Below, one piece after another: positions 8,172-32,360 of a stretch of 32,360 bases of DNA. The stretch is from an uncultured Spirochaetaceae bacterium (GTDB taxonomy: Bacteria > Spirochaetota > Spirochaetia > Sphaerochaetales > Sphaerochaetaceae). A program made the position numbers and the translations under genes. How positions within the stretch are numbered: the stretch's first letter is position 1; every line of letters starts with the position of its first letter. The stretch lies in NCBI GenBank assembly GCA_944389115.1, contig CALXLE010000057.1, positions 1 through 32,360 on the forward strand. Direction: 5' to 3'. The notes under the pieces are model-generated. The model ran no database searches. It saw only the letters and a program-made list of their open reading frames with translations, and was not told the origin of the DNA.

Positions 8172-8270
8172 CACTTTATCATGTAATGCTTTATGGATTG
8201 TCATCTCTGGCATTCACTGGGCCATTGTTAGCTTTCATCGAAAGGATAGTCCAAAATACATTAAAATTCC

Positions 8271-8298
8271 TTGACATAATGCCGGGGGGGGGTATGCT
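8271..8298 (+). promoter_or_regulatory. Promoter with a nine-G tract in its spacer
   Basis: A consensus -35 TTGACA (8271-8276) and a -10-like TATGCT (8293-8298) are separated by 16 bases, of which the last nine (8284-8292) are all G. The promoter points at the lipoprotein gene starting at 8332, with a GAGG ribosome site at 8321-8324. Gain or loss of one G would change the spacer to 17 or 15. A second AT-rich box, TATAAA at 8304-8309, lacks a -35 at normal distance. Poly-G tracts of this kind control phase variation of porA in Neisseria and lie upstream of tpr genes in Treponema pallidum; the same role here is inferred. Confidence 0.7.
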
Positions 8299-8331
8299 TC
8301 AGCTATAAATAATTCAGATCGAGGCAAAATC

Positions 8332-9831
8332 ATGAAGAAACTTCTTTTATTATCAACATGCATCATTTTTATCCTGCTTGCATCAGCATGCACTCAGTAC
8401 CAATGGATACCTATTCCAATGCCAGATGATTCGCAATCAGTAATTACTGATATCGAGGATGTGCAAGATAATATCAATACGGAAACCATTCTTTCTGATG
8501 CTTTAGCAAATCGTTATCCGGAAAAGATGATCGTATCAGTTGAGAAAATCAACGAAACAACAAGTTCAACAAGCAGAACAGTAAGTGAACCTGGGACATA
8601 TCGAATAACAATAACACTTGTCGACTATGAAGGAGAGGCCGGAGGAATATTGAACGGCAGTATCATATACATTTTCACTGTTGCTTCTGCTGATGCAACA
8701 CCAGCTTATGAAGTTCAGAATTCCACAATCAGCGTTATGGCCCAAAATGCAACTATACCGCTATCACCCACAATCGGAGGTTTTATAGGAACTACAAGCG
8801 GTGTTTCATTCTCTTCTACTGGAATTACAGTTGATAGTGCAATCTCTGTCACACAGAATAAATATAATGGGTTCTACACAGCAGGAAATTACACAATCAC
8901 CGAATCAGGCAAGAACAATCCTGGATCAGGAACCGAGAACAACCCCTTCCAAATCAGAAATGCAGATGATCTCGCGGCTATAAATTCTTACGGAGAGAAT
9001 GCATATTTGCAGCTTACCTCTGATATTACTGCCGGAAACATCTGGATTACGACAGATGGTATAACGCTTGATTTCAATGGCCACACTATTGATGCAACAG
9101 GTTCAAATGGCATCCTTGTAAATGGTGTTTCCACTACTTTCATCGATAATACTGGAAATGGCGGTATTTCAGCAGAAAGAGCGCTATGGGCTATAAATGG
9201 AGGCAGTATTACCGTCAATAGCGGTAATTATAATGCAAATACTACTGCTCTTACACTTGGGCAATGGGGCAAATCTGGAGAGACAGTTACAATCGATCAT
9301 GGAAATGCAGTAGTGAATGGTGGTACGTTTATTTCACACAATGCCTGTGTATCAGTTTTTGCGGAAAGCGTTCTTGTAGTGAACGGAGGCTCTTTCTCAG
9401 CGGACTCAAATACCGTAATCATGACAAATGGTTCTCAGGAACTTACTTCTCATCCATATTCAATAACCTTTAATTCAGGGGTGATAAATGGCTTCATGAG
9501 TCCAGAAGGCCGGGAAGAAGGATATCTTGCGGGAGGATTCTATATCGCAAATGCAGGTGAATTGAATCTTAATGGAGGCACTCTCAATATAACAGGAGGC
9601 AACGGACTTGTAATAAGAAGCGGTAACGTTAATATTTCTGAGAATGTCGCATTCAATCTAACAAATGTAGAAGGTGTCACAGAAGGACTTGTTGCAGATG
9701 CAAAAACGAAAATCCCAGCAAATTGCAAAATTGTTGTTGATACTCTGTCTGCTTACCCCGGAGGAACTCCAACTGTAACATCATCTACCCATGAAATTAC
9801 GTATGTAACAGATACCAACATAAATAACTGA
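8332..9831 (+). CDS. Lipoprotein with predicted right-handed beta-helix
   Basis: A 499-residue protein with a lipoprotein signal: charged MKK, hydrophobic core, then LASAC with the lipidated cysteine at 20. Residues ~80-190 look beta-rich. From GTENNPFQIRNADDLAAIN (201-218) to about 460 there are short repeated turns with NGG, such as INGGSITV, VNGGTFIS, VNGGSFSA and LNGGTLNI, typical of pectate-lyase-like beta-helices of surface proteins and adhesins. I do not recognise a specific family. It is richer in A+T than the housekeeping genes beside it and stands alone. Its promoter has a poly-G tract, suggesting phase-variable display. Export to the surface is inferred. Confidence 0.75.
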   Translation: MKKLLLLSTCIIFILLASACTQYQWIPIPMPDDSQSVITDIEDVQDNINTETILSDALANRYPEKMIVSVEKINETTSSTSRTVSEPGTYRITITLVDYEGEAGGILNGSIIYIFTVASADATPAYEVQNSTISVMAQNATIPLSPTIGGFIGTTSGVSFSSTGITVDSAISVTQNKYNGFYTAGNYTITESGKNNPGSGTENNPFQIRNADDLAAINSYGENAYLQLTSDITAGNIWITTDGITLDFNGHTIDATGSNGILVNGVSTTFIDNTGNGGISAERALWAINGGSITVNSGNYNANTTALTLGQWGKSGETVTIDHGNAVVNGGTFISHNACVSVFAESVLVVNGGSFSADSNTVIMTNGSQELTSHPYSITFNSGVINGFMSPEGREEGYLAGGFYIANAGELNLNGGTLNITGGNGLVIRSGNVNISENVAFNLTNVEGVTEGLVADAKTKIPANCKIVVDTLSAYPGGTPTVTSSTHEITYVTDTNINN

Positions 9832-9857
9832 CAATTTTTTCAATTTTCAATTTTTAA

Positions 9858-9888
9858 ATGGCCGTTTCCTATGATGCGGCCATCATTT
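9858..9888 (+). terminator. Terminator after the lipoprotein gene
   Basis: A 7-bp perfect stem ATGGCCG/CGGCCAT (9858-9864 and 9877-9883) with a 12-base loop is followed by CATTTT. Just before it are three tandem CAATTTT units (9832-9855), immediately after the stop codon. The T-tract is short, so termination strength is uncertain. Confidence 0.5.
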
Positions 9889-9917
9889 TGCCATTTATCG
9901 CTGTTTTTTAGTATATT
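9888..9917 (+). promoter_or_regulatory. Promoter of the AI-2E-family gene
   Basis: TTGCCA (9888-9893) and TATATT (9912-9917) are separated by 18 bases. The -10 ends only six bases before the ATG at 9924, which would place the RNA start at the start codon. No ribosome site is visible. Confidence 0.5.
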
Positions 9918-24272: not shown

Positions 24273-25769
24273 ATGGCATTACCAATAAACATAGAGGATC
24301 TTCTTGAGCAGAAAACAGTTGAAAGTTCACGCATCGATTACAAAGCAGGCTGGAATCCTGAGCCGATAATCCATACCATCTGCGCTTTTGCCAATGATAT
24401 CGACAATATCGGTGGCGGATATATTGTAATAGGCATTGATGAAGAAAATGGAATGCCAGTTTTCCCAATCAAGGGTATCGATAAGGATTCTATCGATACA
24501 ATCAATAAAGAGCTGTTGCAAAAATGCAATCTAATTGAACCAAGATATATTCCCGTCATCTCTCATGAAATATATGATGGCAAAGATATCCTTATACTAT
24601 GGATACCAGGAGGTAATGCACGCCCATACAAATGTCCCATAGAGATATACCAGAAGGCCAAGTCCCCTAAGGCTTACTATATTAGAAAAGGGTCCAATAC
24701 TATAAAAGCAAGTGCGGATGAGGAGCGACACCTGTTTTCAATATCGTCAAGCATACCATTCGATGACAGGCCCAATCCACAGGCAAGCACCAATGATATT
24801 GCCCCCTACCTCATAACCGATTTTCTTAATAAAGTTGGAAGTTCCATAAACATTGATCCAAAGACGAGCATCAGCGATGTAATGCTCCAGATGGGACTTC
24901 TGGATGGTCCGGCCGAAATGAGATTCCCTAAGAATGTTGCCCTGATGTTCTTTTCCGAGAATCCAGAGAGATTCTTCCCGTATGCCAGAATTGAATTCGT
25001 CGATAAACCCGATCCTGCAGGGGAGAATATGACTGAAACAACCTTCACGGGCCCATTGGACCAGCAGATAACAACAGCACTGAGATTCATTAAAGGATAT
25101 GTAATCAAAGAACGCATCCAGAAGCTCGAATATACAGCAGAGGCAGTACGTACTTTCAATTATCCTTTTGCAGCAATCGAGGAAGCTCTTGTTAATGCCG
25201 TATACCATAAGTCATATGAGATACGAGAGCCAATCACGATAACCCTTACACCCAAGCAGATTGAAATCAGAAGTTTTCCGGGCCCTGATCGCTACATAAC
25301 AGATGAGGATCTGGAAAATGGCCATCTAATAGGACTACAGTACCGCAATCGCAGAATCGGGGACTATTTAAAGGAACTGAAACTTGCGGAGGGGCGTAAT
25401 ACGGGAATACCGAAGATAATAGATTCTATGAGCAAGAATGGTTCTCCTTCACCATTGTTTATAACAGACAGTGAGCGAATACATTTCGGAGTCATCCTTC
25501 CTATCCATGAAAGCTTTCTACCAAAAGAAGATAAGAAAAACAAAGGACCTATACGCAGATCAAAAACAGAAATGAAGAAAGCTATCCTCTCAATCCTTGC
25601 TGATTGTGGAAAGATGTCGGTGGGTCAATTAGCCGATGCATTAGGTTATCCTATGCCAACATCCTCTCTCCGGGCTGCAATAAAGGAACTGGCAGAAGAA
25701 CAAAAGATTGAATACACGGAGAAAAACCTGAGAGCACCAAATCAGAAAATAAAGCTGAAGGTAAACTGA
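24273..25769 (+). CDS. AlbA_2 / HATPase_c_4 putative transcriptional regulator
   Basis: A 498-residue protein of the divergent AAA-4 (Schlafen AlbA_2) type. Residues ~10-150 form the AlbA_2 nucleic-acid-binding domain (EKQTVESSRIDYKAG-like start; IGGGYIVIGIDE). Residues ~290-420 hold a GHKL ATPase-like part: AIEEALVNAVYHKSY (301-315) and GRNTGIPKII (374-383). A C-terminal winged helix spans ~432-498. Such proteins are annotated as RecG-like or transcriptional regulators; function is not established. The ribosome site is CGGAGG. It is convergent with the prophage operon and close to its edge, so it may be an accessory gene. Confidence 0.85.
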   Translation: MALPINIEDLLEQKTVESSRIDYKAGWNPEPIIHTICAFANDIDNIGGGYIVIGIDEENGMPVFPIKGIDKDSIDTINKELLQKCNLIEPRYIPVISHEIYDGKDILILWIPGGNARPYKCPIEIYQKAKSPKAYYIRKGSNTIKASADEERHLFSISSSIPFDDRPNPQASTNDIAPYLITDFLNKVGSSINIDPKTSISDVMLQMGLLDGPAEMRFPKNVALMFFSENPERFFPYARIEFVDKPDPAGENMTETTFTGPLDQQITTALRFIKGYVIKERIQKLEYTAEAVRTFNYPFAAIEEALVNAVYHKSYEIREPITITLTPKQIEIRSFPGPDRYITDEDLENGHLIGLQYRNRRIGDYLKELKLAEGRNTGIPKIIDSMSKNGSPSPLFITDSERIHFGVILPIHESFLPKEDKKNKGPIRRSKTEMKKAILSILADCGKMSVGQLADALGYPMPTSSLRAAIKELAEEQKIEYTEKNLRAPNQKIKLKVN

Positions 25770-26679: not shown

Positions 26680-29532
26680 TTACGGAGTATCTGGTAATTT
26701 AGTCTTTACCGTTCCATTTGAGTCTATATAAAGCTGTCCCGGTTTTAATGAAGCCATCTTTTCTGTTGAAGGATCTATCGGAACACTTAAATACACTTCA
26801 TCGTTTGCAACCTTAATTGTCATATAAACGGTTTGATTAATCCAAACGCCATAAGAACCAGATGAAATAAGTACATCTACTATTCCATCGCCAAACGATG
26901 TTCCACTTACTGTATATTCAAGACCTGTATTAGCAATGTTTAAGCTGTTTAAGTTGTTATCATATAAAAAAAGCCAGAATATACCACTCGTTATCATTAT
27001 AAATGGATAAATGTATCTTAAGCCCGGTATATTTGACGAAGATACTTCAAAGATGTGTCCGTTGATTTCTTTGAGCAAATATTGAATAGCTGTGAAATCA
27101 GTACTACCTGTTATGGCTGCTGCTAAATTGCCAAGAAGAGTAGAACACTGTGAAGAACCTTCATCCGCTGTCACATAATAGTTGTTTGATTCTTTTGGTA
27201 TTACTTTCAACCCTCCACACTGAAGCTCTCCTTGAAATTTTGAATTACCACTAATATTCAGATCGTAAGCATTCATATTCTGTATATAGCCGTTTGTACC
27301 TTCTATTTTTCCATGAAATGTACCGCTATTTGCAGTAATCGAACCTGAAAGTTTTGCATCCACGGCTGTAACTAATCCAGTATTGAAATTAATATGGAAC
27401 TTCAAAGCTCTATTATCACCTTGAGAAGCTGCACCAAAGCGCATTGTTACACCATCTTGTGTTATCTCAAATGTAGCAAGATTGTTACCAACTGTCTTAG
27501 TGAATCGGAACTCACCAAGAACAGTGATAATCTGAGCAAAGAGATTTTCGACAAATGCTTCTTTGCTTGCCAATCTCTTATACCAGCTCATGTACTTGGT
27601 ATTTTGGACTGTATCGGAAGAAAGTGCATCATCGAGACATGAAGACATTATCTTGCCATACATATCAGGAGATACGTTAGCATTCTCACCTGTTACATAT
27701 ACTTCTTCCCAGCTTGTGCCATTCCATCTATAAGGGTTTCCTGCTTTGAATGTGTCAAAGCTCTTAGAACAAAGGAAGTAATCACCAACTGCAAGAATCA
27801 GGACATTTCCCTCATCATCATACCCCTGAGTTGGTACAGCACTGTCATATGCTCCTAGATATAAAGGGTCGGCCGTCTTATCCACCACGCCAAGGTTAAG
27901 AGTGTCCATAAGCTGCGTTCCGTTGAACAGGCTTATAGTGAAACCTTCTGCATTTCTATAAGGGATTATGACTGTATATGTTCCACCTTCTGCAACATAG
28001 CGATCATTGACATACCACTTCGGTCTTGCTTTGGTGTAGCCGTTGATATCAGCTCTGAAAGTGATTGTCTGAGAAGTCGTGAGCCTGTCATTGCGAACAA
28101 CTACAGTTGACGATGCTACAATCTCAAACTTGCTTCCTTCGCCTTTCCCTGCACAGTAGTAGCTTTTTGTGGACGTACCATCAGACATAAGAGTTGTCAC
28201 TCTTACCCATAGATACTTTTCAGCATCAATCTCTATTGAATCAGAGAACTCTGAATCCAAAGGACAAACGGTATTACTGTCAGAAAGAGCATAAGCGTAA
28301 CTGTATTTTACAGCACTGTTGCCTTTGTCTCCAACAGGTTTAGAACCATCAGGATTAACAACCTGATCTATGAAATTGGATAGGGTCTTATTGAGTGTTA
28401 TCTTGTTGCTTTCAGGCTTCTGCAAATCGAGTTCGAGCTTAAGGATTGAATATGTGTCGTTCACGCCATGTGGTGTGGATACAACCTTCATCTTCTTTCC
28501 CATTTCTAGGAAATCAACATCCTCAAACCATCCAAGGTCTACAACTGTCACCTCAATAGAATTGGAAAGCCCTGTAAGCGCATCGACTTCATCCAATACT
28601 TGCTGAATCCAGTCAGCAGGGTATCCGTCATAGCTACGCTGTTCTATAATAGCTCCATACTTCTCAAAGAGAGGTTTATTGACTATCACAAGTCCATTTG
28701 CCCCGAATATGTTATCCATATTGAGCTTGCCATTTATCGGGAAAGACTTTTCCAAATCCATATCCGATGATGTCACAGGGAACATCTGCTTATGGTGTGA
28801 GGTTTCAATGATATCCATTTCAGAGATATTGGTTGGATATCCTGTATTCTCGTTCTCATCGCCTGTAGGAAGGATACCTGTGATAATCTCTCCACCTTCC
28901 ACGGTCTGTGTAAGGTCAAGGATATTCTTTCCAAGCTCTGCTGTCTGGTCTAAGAGTTCATAGGAATCAATCCAGTCAATGTATGTACCCTCATCTTCAT
29001 GACGGAATGATATATGACCTCCGTATGCTTCCAAAAGGTCTTCCATAGCATCAAGGGATTTCTCCCATTCCATGTAAGCATAAGAGACTTCTTCATCTGA
29101 GCCATCAACTGAGATAGTACCAATAATGAACTGTCTCTCTTCTGTTACCTGAGAATTGTGGTCACTGATGATCTTGGTGAAAATCTCAATCGGTGTAGCT
29201 GATGTCGTCCCCTCATCATCCTCATATCCATCAGGATGGATAACGGAATCATTCAGAAAAGCGAACTCCCCTTCACAGGTAAACTTGCGTTCCTTATAGA
29301 AGCTCTCTTCTGAATCAAGCACCCTGCCACGGAAGATAATCTTATCGTTCTGCGTAACAGTGATGATGCTCTTCATCCTATCAAACGACTGGTAGTAAGG
29401 ATGCTGTGGATAGACAACGAACTCGAATGACCCCGCCTTGTTTTCCTCAAGAGTCAGCTTCATGTCTGATATATATTTCTCATCTATCCTATCGTCATAG
29501 AAGCATTCATTTTCCAGATATACCTTGAACAT
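26680..29532 (-). CDS. Phage tail endopeptidase / adsorption protein (Tal-like)
   Basis: A 950-residue siphovirus tail-tip protein. The first ~390 residues resemble the prophage tail endopeptidase (Tal) baseplate domain: a Dit-contacting start, then MEWEKSLDAMEDLLEAYGGHISF and VEGGEIITGILPTGDENE. The middle has beta-sandwich-like repeats and a KAGNPYRWNGTSWEEVYVTG segment like small sugar-binding or wrapping modules. Residues around 700-770 contain SGSITANSGTFHGKIEG, found in tail-tip/fibre proteins. It probably binds the host surface. It lies 10 bases after the Dit gene with an AAAGGT site. Confidence 0.8.
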   Translation of the reverse strand: MFKVYLENECFYDDRIDEKYISDMKLTLEENKAGSFEFVVYPQHPYYQSFDRMKSIITVTQNDKIIFRGRVLDSEESFYKERKFTCEGEFAFLNDSVIHPDGYEDDEGTTSATPIEIFTKIISDHNSQVTEERQFIIGTISVDGSDEEVSYAYMEWEKSLDAMEDLLEAYGGHISFRHEDEGTYIDWIDSYELLDQTAELGKNILDLTQTVEGGEIITGILPTGDENENTGYPTNISEMDIIETSHHKQMFPVTSSDMDLEKSFPINGKLNMDNIFGANGLVIVNKPLFEKYGAIIEQRSYDGYPADWIQQVLDEVDALTGLSNSIEVTVVDLGWFEDVDFLEMGKKMKVVSTPHGVNDTYSILKLELDLQKPESNKITLNKTLSNFIDQVVNPDGSKPVGDKGNSAVKYSYAYALSDSNTVCPLDSEFSDSIEIDAEKYLWVRVTTLMSDGTSTKSYYCAGKGEGSKFEIVASSTVVVRNDRLTTSQTITFRADINGYTKARPKWYVNDRYVAEGGTYTVIIPYRNAEGFTISLFNGTQLMDTLNLGVVDKTADPLYLGAYDSAVPTQGYDDEGNVLILAVGDYFLCSKSFDTFKAGNPYRWNGTSWEEVYVTGENANVSPDMYGKIMSSCLDDALSSDTVQNTKYMSWYKRLASKEAFVENLFAQIITVLGEFRFTKTVGNNLATFEITQDGVTMRFGAASQGDNRALKFHINFNTGLVTAVDAKLSGSITANSGTFHGKIEGTNGYIQNMNAYDLNISGNSKFQGELQCGGLKVIPKESNNYYVTADEGSSQCSTLLGNLAAAITGSTDFTAIQYLLKEINGHIFEVSSSNIPGLRYIYPFIMITSGIFWLFLYDNNLNSLNIANTGLEYTVSGTSFGDGIVDVLISSGSYGVWINQTVYMTIKVANDEVYLSVPIDPSTEKMASLKPGQLYIDSNGTVKTKLPDTP

Positions 29533-29542
29533 TACTCTACCT

Positions 29543-30190
29543 TTACAGGCTTGCCATCTGATAACGTATGGTCAGCGTGCCTGTACCGTTGACCTTGAGC
29601 CAATGCTCCCCTTCTGTGAGTCTGATGTCAGGGGAATAGATCTCCTCATTCGGAGGAACAACGACTGTTGCAGAACCGAATACCAATGACATTGAATTGG
29701 TAGCCATGAACGTAGGATTGACCGACTTACGCATATTGGTAAGCCTGATTGTCTTCGTATCCACAACGTCCTCTATAAGTACTGTTTCTTCACGCCAATA
29801 CTTATATGGGTCTGCTTCTATCGTGAAATTCATAGTTCCAAGAACCTTGTCTGTCTTCCACTTATCAATGGATACACGCCCGACATAGTAGAAATCCTCA
29901 TCATCGTCAAATACGATTCTGAACCTCTTACCATGAATAAGATTCTGGACATTCGAGAAGATATCCCAGAACTTTGACCTATCATCCACAACAGTGAATC
30001 CCAGCTTTATGGAACGTGTTTCATAGCGTATCTCTCCCAGAACCTCAGTGAGATCAAGAGAGCCGTCTGCGCCATCAACATCAACATAATGTTCCTTGAT
30101 TTTCGGAGAAGAGATTTCCCTAGAGCTGAGAATCAGCCCTAGGTCTTTATAACTGTCAATATCTCCGAATCTAACGTTACGAATAACCAT
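29543..30190 (-). CDS. Phage distal tail protein (Dit, Sipho_tail)
   Basis: A 215-residue protein of the siphovirus Dit family, the hub linking tail tube to tip. Seen are the HYVDVDGADGSLDLTEVLG segment, typical of Dit (V.GrdG..D.t), a FTIEADPYKYW motif and a C-terminal galectin-like beta domain ending in LTIRYQMASL. The ATG overlaps the tape-measure stop as TGATG. Gene order (tape measure, Dit, Tal) is standard for siphophages. Confidence 0.88.
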   Translation of the reverse strand: MVIRNVRFGDIDSYKDLGLILSSREISSPKIKEHYVDVDGADGSLDLTEVLGEIRYETRSIKLGFTVVDDRSKFWDIFSNVQNLIHGKRFRIVFDDDEDFYYVGRVSIDKWKTDKVLGTMNFTIEADPYKYWREETVLIEDVVDTKTIRLTNMRKSVNPTFMATNSMSLVFGSATVVVPPNEEIYSPDIRLTEGEHWLKVNGTGTLTIRYQMASL

Positions 30191-32360
30191 CAGATACCCC
30201 TTGCCCTCAAGCGAGAGCTTCTACCCAGCTCCGTATCAACGTATGGGCTGATAACCCTAGCCACTACCTGACCATCAATAACGACTTCCCTGTTTCCGCT
30301 TCTGAGGAAATCAAAGAACTCTGCAACCATCTGCCTGAATGTGACTATCTCTTCCCTTACGCTTCCAGAGTTACCACTGGTCTGCCTTTCTGCTTCTACG
30401 ATTGCAGGACTGAGTGCTTTAGCAAGTCCACCAACCCACTCTGTATTGTGTTCGAGAGGAACGATAGCTTCTGCTCCATCCTCTCCAATGAGAGCATGTG
30501 TAGCTTCGTTTACGATTCCACCTTCTGCCAGTGCAGGAGTGTATTGCTGTGCGCTTATTGTCGCCGTCTGAACACCAGCCGTAGCCATGACCAATGCAGC
30601 AGCCACCGCTCCTGCAATCGGCCCAAGCTGTGCAAAAGCTGTCATGGTAGCAGTTGCAGCCTGAATCCATACCTGAGCAATCTGAGTCACCTTATTGGCT
30701 TCAAACTGCTTTCTAGCAAGCTCATCTTTCTTCCTGAGAAGTTCCTCTTCGGCTGTTGCTTCCTCAGCATTAAGCTGGTCTTTGTAATCAGCCAGTTCCT
30801 TCTCATTTTGCTCAACGGCTTTAACATAATCGGCATAGGAAATCTTCCCTGAATAGAGCTGGTCTTTCAGAGCCTTATTCTCTTCATCAAGGGATTCTTC
30901 CTTATCTTCCAGCTTCTGCTCATTAAGTTCCTGCAAATCCTCATAATGGGCTTCGAGTTCAGCAATCTCATTCTCAAGATACTGATTCTCAAGGTCTTGC
31001 AGAGCTGTGAACAGAGGCGTGATATAGGTATCAACTGCATCCATCACGGAGCTGAAAGCATTTCCCATGTTGCTCATGAAAGTCTGGAATCCGCTCATCT
31101 GGTCTTTTGTCTTATTGAAGAAATTGACCACTGAGACGTTCAATTCATCCCATGATTCAATCCAGCTCTTAGTCTCTTCTTTATTCTCTACAGTTGCTTC
31201 CTTGAAGTTGACTAGAGCTGTACCAGCTGCATCCATCGCACTCTGAGTGTTCTGCATCGCTGTAACAAGCTCTTCAATCTCAGCTCTTGTTTCACGAGCA
31301 TTCAGACCCATTTCGCCTGATTCTGACACAGCAAGCGAGTACTCCTGATTCAGAGCCATGAGTTTTTCTTTCTGTGTATCAAACTGCTGATTCAATAGCT
31401 CAATCTGAGAGGTTATACCGTCCGTAGAGGTCTTCCAGTTCTCATTGTCTCCGGCAAGGTCTCTCATCTTCTTGGTAATCTCATCGAGATCACCATTGAT
31501 GGAATAAAGCTCATCATGGACTCCGCTTACAGAGAGAGCTGAATATGAGCCAGTGCCAAAAGATGATGCATTCTGGTTGTTTATTTCGGTAGCTATACGG
31601 TCAGCAAAAAGCTCAACAGCCTTTGACTGTTCAAGAGGTACTATAGCCTCTGCACCAGCTTCACCGACAATTGCCTGTGTAGCTCCATCAACAACGCCAC
31701 CCTGAGCCATCTTTGGAAGCTCAACTCTTTCAAGCGGAGATATCTCAACCCCAGGAATGGCATTGATTACATCTATTACCTTGTTGATACCTTCGACAAA
31801 CCAATTGACCTTATTCTCAAGCCAATTGAGTACACCATTGAAAGCACTCTTGAATGAGTTGGTAAAAGCATCGCTGATTGTTGTACCAATTGAGGTAAAC
31901 TTACTCTTCACATCGTCCCAGAGTCCTGAGAAGAAATCGCTCCAATCGGAGAAAATACCTTTCAGGTTGTTCCAAGCAGTAGAGAAGATATCAGAGAAGA
32001 ACTCACCAACAGGAGTGAATATCGTCTTTATCGAATCATATAGATCAGTGAAGAACGAACCCCAACTAGAGAACACTCCCTTGATGTTTTCCCAAGCTCC
32101 TGAGAAGTCACCTGTAATGGCATCACCCAGTGCTGTTACCGTACCTCTTACCGTATCCCACAGAGTTGTGAAGAATCCGACAACAGGTGAAAGAACATCC
32201 TTTATCTCTTCCCATGCATCCCCAAACTTCTCACCAAAGAAAGCATCGATTGGTGCAAAGATATTCTTGATGCTCTCAAAGAGACCATTGAAGAATCCTT
32301 CCCAGCTTGCAAAGACACCTTTTATGGCTTCCCAAGCTCCTGAGAAGTCTCCCTGCATAG
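30190..32360 (-). CDS. Phage tail tape measure protein, 5' end outside the window
   Basis: At least 722 residues of the C-terminal part; the frame is open at the right edge, so the methionine at 32358 is internal. Four 40-residue repeats start at residues 8, 48, 88 and 128 (AWExIKxVF..W..FF..L.D.VK). Two copies of the tape-measure motif occur: GGVVDGATQAIVGEAGAEAI (~220-239) and a near copy GGIVNEATHALIGEDGAEAI (~620). Long coiled-coil-like stretches and a hydrophobic Ala-rich segment lie between. It sets tail length and is injected with the DNA. Confidence 0.9.
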   Translation of the reverse strand, partial: MQGDFSGAWEAIKGVFASWEGFFNGLFESIKNIFAPIDAFFGEKFGDAWEEIKDVLSPVVGFFTTLWDTVRGTVTALGDAITGDFSGAWENIKGVFSSWGSFFTDLYDSIKTIFTPVGEFFSDIFSTAWNNLKGIFSDWSDFFSGLWDDVKSKFTSIGTTISDAFTNSFKSAFNGVLNWLENKVNWFVEGINKVIDVINAIPGVEISPLERVELPKMAQGGVVDGATQAIVGEAGAEAIVPLEQSKAVELFADRIATEINNQNASSFGTGSYSALSVSGVHDELYSINGDLDEITKKMRDLAGDNENWKTSTDGITSQIELLNQQFDTQKEKLMALNQEYSLAVSESGEMGLNARETRAEIEELVTAMQNTQSAMDAAGTALVNFKEATVENKEETKSWIESWDELNVSVVNFFNKTKDQMSGFQTFMSNMGNAFSSVMDAVDTYITPLFTALQDLENQYLENEIAELEAHYEDLQELNEQKLEDKEESLDEENKALKDQLYSGKISYADYVKAVEQNEKELADYKDQLNAEEATAEEELLRKKDELARKQFEANKVTQIAQVWIQAATATMTAFAQLGPIAGAVAAALVMATAGVQTATISAQQYTPALAEGGIVNEATHALIGEDGAEAIVPLEHNTEWVGGLAKALSPAIVEAERQTSGNSGSVREEIVTFRQMVAEFFDFLRSGNREVVIDGQVVARVISPYVDTELGRSSRLRARGI

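Follow-up and report, generated by a model that had tools for sequence, protein, structure and literature searches.

A poly-G tract in the promoter spacer as a probable phase-variation switch of lipoprotein genes in uncultured Spirochaetaceae

The porA promoter of Neisseria meningitidis contains a poly-G tract, and its output is high with 11 G, 2.2-fold lower with 10 G and 13-fold lower with 9 G (PMC3639595). In Treponema pallidum, tp0126 has a poly-G tract between its -35 and -10 boxes, with the best output at a spacer of 17 nt; the tprL tracts contain 7–11 G in vivo and transcription starts at the fourth nucleotide after the tract (PMC7864442). Mycoplasma hyorhinis has several vlp lipoprotein genes with their own transcripts, each of which is switched on and off by a homopolymer in its promoter, and the Vmm system of Mycoplasma mycoides relies on a change in repeat length in the promoter spacer of a surface protein gene (PMC10502178).

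The window analysed here, a stretch of 32,360 nt, is one contig (C57) of the 2.47-Mb draft genome (G000) of an uncultured Spirochaetaceae bacterium. It carries a lipoprotein gene (ATG at 8332) preceded by a homopolymer which, as in porA and tp0126, sits between recognisable -35 and -10 boxes (Table 1). The initial annotation had described TTGACA, seven bases, nine G and TATGCT with a 16-nt spacer, a layout which is exact by coordinates. It had also proposed that the tract is a length-dependent switch, and the sequence comparisons support this through the recurrence of the layout, its lipoprotein targets, the TANNNT motif and the variation in the number of G. The tract thus probably acts as a variable spacer whose length would submit the lipoprotein to transcriptional phase variation; we give this reading a probability of about 0.86.

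Table 1. Features of the lipoprotein locus in the window
Feature	Position	Strand	Basis or remark
Accessory segment: promoter, lipoprotein gene and hairpin	8200-9907	+	absent in G032 and G042
-35 box TTGACA	8271-8276	+	promoter scan and sequence; A-rich upstream in the family
Fixed part of the spacer, TAATGCC, 7 nt, short-spacer class	8277-8283	+	sequence; class defined by 7-8 fixed bases
Slippable G9 tract	8284-8292	+	sequence; length 8-15 in the family
-10 box TATGCT	8293-8298	+	TANNNT directly 3' of the tract in 99/111 sites
Predicted transcription start A	8305	+	inferred from the 111-site column profile
Shine-Dalgarno GAGG	8321-8324	+	sequence
Signal peptide and lipobox cysteine	8332-8391	+	lipobox analysis
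Lipoprotein gene, 499 aa, lipobox LASAC, Cys20	8332-9831	+	no Pfam family; beta-helix predicted for residues 193-499
Hairpin 3' of the lipoprotein gene, possible terminator	9858-9883	+	-14.7 kcal/mol for 65 nt, z -3.07

The pattern TTGACA-N5-11-G9 occurs once in the window, compared to 0 in 100 dinucleotide shuffles. A promoter scan ranks the poly-G promoter as joint best between 8060 and 10000 (10 of 12 matches), and Rfam gives no match at this promoter. The column profile of 111 sites of this kind shows A-rich blocks 5' of the -35 box, T90 and A93 at the first two positions 3' of the tract, T95 at the sixth, and A in 64% at position 12 after the tract, mostly preceded by a pyrimidine. This profile suggests a -10 box, a six-base gap and a start, so that transcription of the window gene is expected to begin at A8305. 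The sequence TATAAA (8304-8309), which had been named as a possible alternative -10 box, is an unlikely one, since its spacing from TTGACA is 27 and it covers the predicted start.

The 1.7-kb accessory segment lies between rpsT and the gene of an AI-2E-type transporter. Homology to the sister species G032 stops at 8199 and restarts at 9908, with flank identities of 98% on the left, over the first 760 nt of the query, and of 89% on the right; in place of the segment, G032 has about 109 unrelated bp and G042 about 55 bp. Promoter and gene thus come and go together. On the basis of these alignments, the lipoprotein gene is accessory and absent from the sister species. The initial annotation had presented it as the only gene downstream of the promoter. 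In fact the transporter gene follows on the same strand, 92 nt after the lipoprotein stop; a stable hairpin between the two genes nevertheless makes a single-gene transcript likely.

Pfam has no family for the window protein. In an AlphaFold2 prediction made with four relatives, its mean pLDDT is 82, and comparison of the model with known structures (Z up to 23.3) indicates that residues ~193-499 form a right-handed beta-helix, as found in lyases, tailspikes and adhesins. The matches, from a VIA search, include the L. reuteri SRRP (Z of 20.9), PfbA (20.6) and pertactin (19.7); they tell the fold and not the function. Foldseek against the PDB returned no significant match for this protein (best E 0.058). 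The lipobox and the beta-helix are compatible with a surface protein, which may be exported to the outer face. A lipoprotein with a beta-helix and no Pfam match, it does not belong to the Tpr family of T. pallidum.

With the window protein as query, a scan of the named genomes yielded no relative, whereas the search of the genus did. G016 has a full-length homologue (41% identity) with the promoter TTGAAA-N9-G9-TAGTAT, and the promoter of a 36% homologue in G042 reads TTGACA-C10-N10-TAGAAT. Another homologue, near a contig end in G044 (L267, G044:C36), has a G9 in its N-terminal coding region, and no signal peptide is recognisable upstream of this tract. Elsewhere in the window, a gene at 24273-25769 encodes Schlafen/AlbA_2 and RecG C-terminal-like domains, and large minus-strand genes occupy 26680-32358. 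One of the latter, of 950 aa, has a weak, below cut-off match to Prophage_tail; this region, at the contig end, is possibly a prophage or a tail-like module.

The tract had been singled out as the only such G run in the window, where it is indeed the sole run of at least seven G or C. It is not a singleton in the genome, in which G9 or longer tracts occur at 18 places. By inspection, 15 of these are just 5' of a lipoprotein start, within ~65 nt, one is within a lipoprotein gene and two are elsewhere. Fourteen tracts of G8 or more are located 5-13 nt behind TTGACA; together with three loci whose -35 box is variant or cut off (L004, L012, L013), this makes about 17 candidate switches. The intragenic tract (L006, G000:C67:17022-17030) is an in-frame G9 which reads Gly-Gly-Gly, where slippage would cause a frameshift.

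The layout TTGACA-N-G8+ is present in 34 of the 48 genomes of the genus, with 232 sites (the sum over the per-genome table) and up to 14 per genome, compared to 0 for the reversed pattern. The 111 distinct sites read in detail come from 13 genomes. TANNNT directly follows the tract in 99 of them (p of 5e-164 against an expectation of 1/64, a nominal value because the sites are partly related), and among the 107 sites which have an ORF, this ORF carries a lipobox in 99; neither motif was part of the site search. The genomes G047, G012, G041 and G006 are all from uncultured Spirochaetaceae bacteria. Across the class, 54 of 395 spirochaete genomes contain the strict G9 form, again with 0 in the control, and 18 of 20 sites in other genera or families precede lipoproteins (G054, G343, G348, G170, G178). 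Candidatus Aphodenecus pullistercoris (G220), of the same family as the window, Sphaerochaetaceae in GTDB terms, carries one site (L119) and Treponema bryantii NK4A124 (G272) another (L156). The isolate names and the sources of related records point to a gut habitat for these spirochaetes. The same poly-G spacer layout was also seen before pilin-like genes in Firmicutes-type genomes (L118, L121, L143) and, as pairs on single contigs, in an alphaproteobacterium and Streptobacillus notomytis (L057, L081, L134).

The tract length ranges from 8 to 15 over the 111 sites, with a mode of 9. Among pairs of paralogues of the same genome with identical 60-nt flanks, the number of G differs in 9 of 13, these pairs coming from four clusters and hence not being 13 independent events. 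Three promoters located at the same loci in G000 and G032 are 94-99% identical over ~315 nt upstream and have 10/9, 8/10 and 8/10 Gs. The tract therefore changes faster than its flanks, both between paralogues and between sister species, as judged from assemblies and not clones; many tracts are near contig ends, and at some loci the counts may be wrong by one. One locus of G032 (L239, G032:C5) has the same position and promoter as L204, with G10 versus G8, and no long ORF from the signal-peptide start, which may point to a broken gene or to an exchange of its body.

In some relatives the repeated base is C. The loci L275-L282 have poly-C between the -35 and -10 boxes, mostly before lipoproteins, several with the N-terminal type of the window protein; in L277, L280 and L282 the spacer contains C8-C9 and the lipoprotein N-terminus is of this kind. 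The occurrence of poly-C in some relatives and poly-G in others suggests that position and slippability are kept, and the letters are not.

The sites fall into two classes, with 7-8 fixed bases (16-17 nt at G9) or 9-10 fixed bases (18-19 nt at G9). The commonest assembled spacers are 19 nt, and 16-17 nt in the class of the window, mostly off the textbook 17, which suggests either that most copies are in a weak state or that the optimum differs in these organisms. A compensation between the fixed part and the number of G was looked for in the 111 sites and not found (Spearman -0.05); the total spacer is thus not visibly held at one value. By analogy with the described promoters, the 16-nt state of the window is probably weak and one or two extra Gs would raise output, while at most other sites, with 9-10 fixed bases, the loss of Gs would improve output.

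Some copies within one genome form groups with the same promoter, leader and signal peptide at the DNA level, and similarity is lost just after the lipobox cysteine. In G047, the 21-aa signal peptide is identical in six lipoproteins whose first 60 mature residues are unrelated. Two G032 loci (L240 and L244) are identical over the 90 nt that lead to the poly-G tract and diverge beyond it, and conversely L003 and L235 are 99.7% identical after the tract and ~66% before it; both cases would fit a recombination event within or close to the promoter. Contigs often end within a cassette, as expected for a repeat in a short-read assembly. The window gene belongs to the short-spacer class and its own signal peptide is not among the near-identical copies. 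As in the Vlp system, several lipoprotein genes, in this genome and in the genus set, have a common promoter, homopolymer and signal peptide. A broader proposal, which we make tentatively and hold to be somewhat less likely than its opposite, is that of a dispersed modular system, in which a cassette made of the poly-G promoter, the leader and the signal peptide would recombine onto unrelated lipoproteins and place each captured protein under its own switch. The two spacer classes would then respond oppositely to the gain or loss of a G, and so keep a mixture of on and off states.

The tract could instead be a fixed spacer element, constitutive or bound by a regulator as the G-rich motif of a shared regulon, with no switching. 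Indeed, conservation extends to the bases before the tract (AAC/TACC in the 111-site profile), and promoters that are copied as cassettes could mark a common regulator. However, the number of G differs between copies with identical flanks and between orthologues, the spacing to TTGACA ranges from 15 to 25 across the sites read, and a poly-C spacer, as found in some relatives, would destroy a G-specific site. A regulator does not exclude slippage either, since the T. pallidum precedents unite a CRP homologue and the poly-G length (PMC7864442). We consider a fixed element unlikely.

On the sense strand, G is strongly preferred to C (232 sites versus ~8), and this would fit a run that works through DNA structure, as a G-quadruplex or as an A-form-like spacer that tunes RNA polymerase, the length variation being secondary. 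A quadruplex needs four short runs, though, and a single run of 8-9 G folds poorly intramolecularly; poly-C versions exist; and the tract, being 5' of the predicted start, would not be in the RNA. This explanation seems very improbable. As for mutational or assembly noise without function, with G runs left by slippage or by two-colour sequencing artefacts, all genomes are assemblies and long homopolymers are error-prone. Yet the position of the tract is exact relative to the -35 box, the -10 box and the start codon in genomes of many projects, the reversed control gives 0, and artefacts would not pick lipoprotein promoters; this reading, already contradicted by the data, hardly deserves any credit.

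The phase-variation reading implies that the lipoprotein, of surface type, would be transcribed from a sigma-70-type promoter with the G9 tract as its variable spacer. Slippage during replication would add or remove Gs, which would shift the distance between the -35 and -10 boxes by single bases and raise or lower the transcription of one gene, reversibly and in individual cells; tract length would set expression, and mixed lengths would be expected in a population. The gene belongs to a multi-locus set, the ~17 candidate loci, with a shared promoter, leader and signal-peptide layout and with mature proteins that differ, some of them adhesin-like. Independent switching could then produce many surface combinations in a clonal population. 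The role of such a system may be adaptive, possible benefits being immune evasion, phage escape and niche choice.

Among spirochaetes, what is known of poly-G promoter switching comes mostly from the agent of syphilis, which is hard to grow. The same layout is found here at a much larger scale, in uncultured, presumably gut-dwelling spirochaetes and across several families of the class. A literature search limited to open-licence papers, hence weak evidence of absence, found no account of poly-G promoters of lipoprotein genes for Sphaerochaeta-type or gut spirochaetes. With the signature TTGACA, 6-11 nt, G8+, TANNNT and lipobox, uncultured genomes can be searched for candidate phase-variable surface proteins, and T. 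bryantii NK4A124 is a culturable relative for the direct study of spirochaete phase variation.

Compared with known systems, the window promoter resembles that of porA in that a poly-G tract lies inside the spacer of one surface protein gene; porA is, however, a single porin gene of an unrelated organism, and the dependence of expression on length, measured for porA, is inferred here. T. pallidum is also a spirochaete and tp0126 also has its poly-G tract in the spacer, but the tp0126/tpr targets are outer-membrane proteins, not lipoproteins, and the tprL tract is just before the start site. The available part of the T. pallidum source (PMC7864442) describes no shared promoter/signal-peptide cassette. 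Vmm of M. mycoides has in common a repeat in the promoter spacer of a surface protein gene, and differs by its dinucleotide repeat and single gene. The Vlp system of M. hyorhinis likewise combines multiple lipoprotein genes, each with a promoter homopolymer, but its tract is poly-A instead of poly-G and its phylum is unrelated, so that the present set would work like Vlp without being a member of it. The vlp genes are clustered and repeat-rich, whereas here the genes are dispersed over many contigs and their mature parts are mostly unrelated. Promoter-spacer slippage is thus already known from porA, tp0126 and vlp, and what is described here is a variant of it aimed mainly at lipoproteins.
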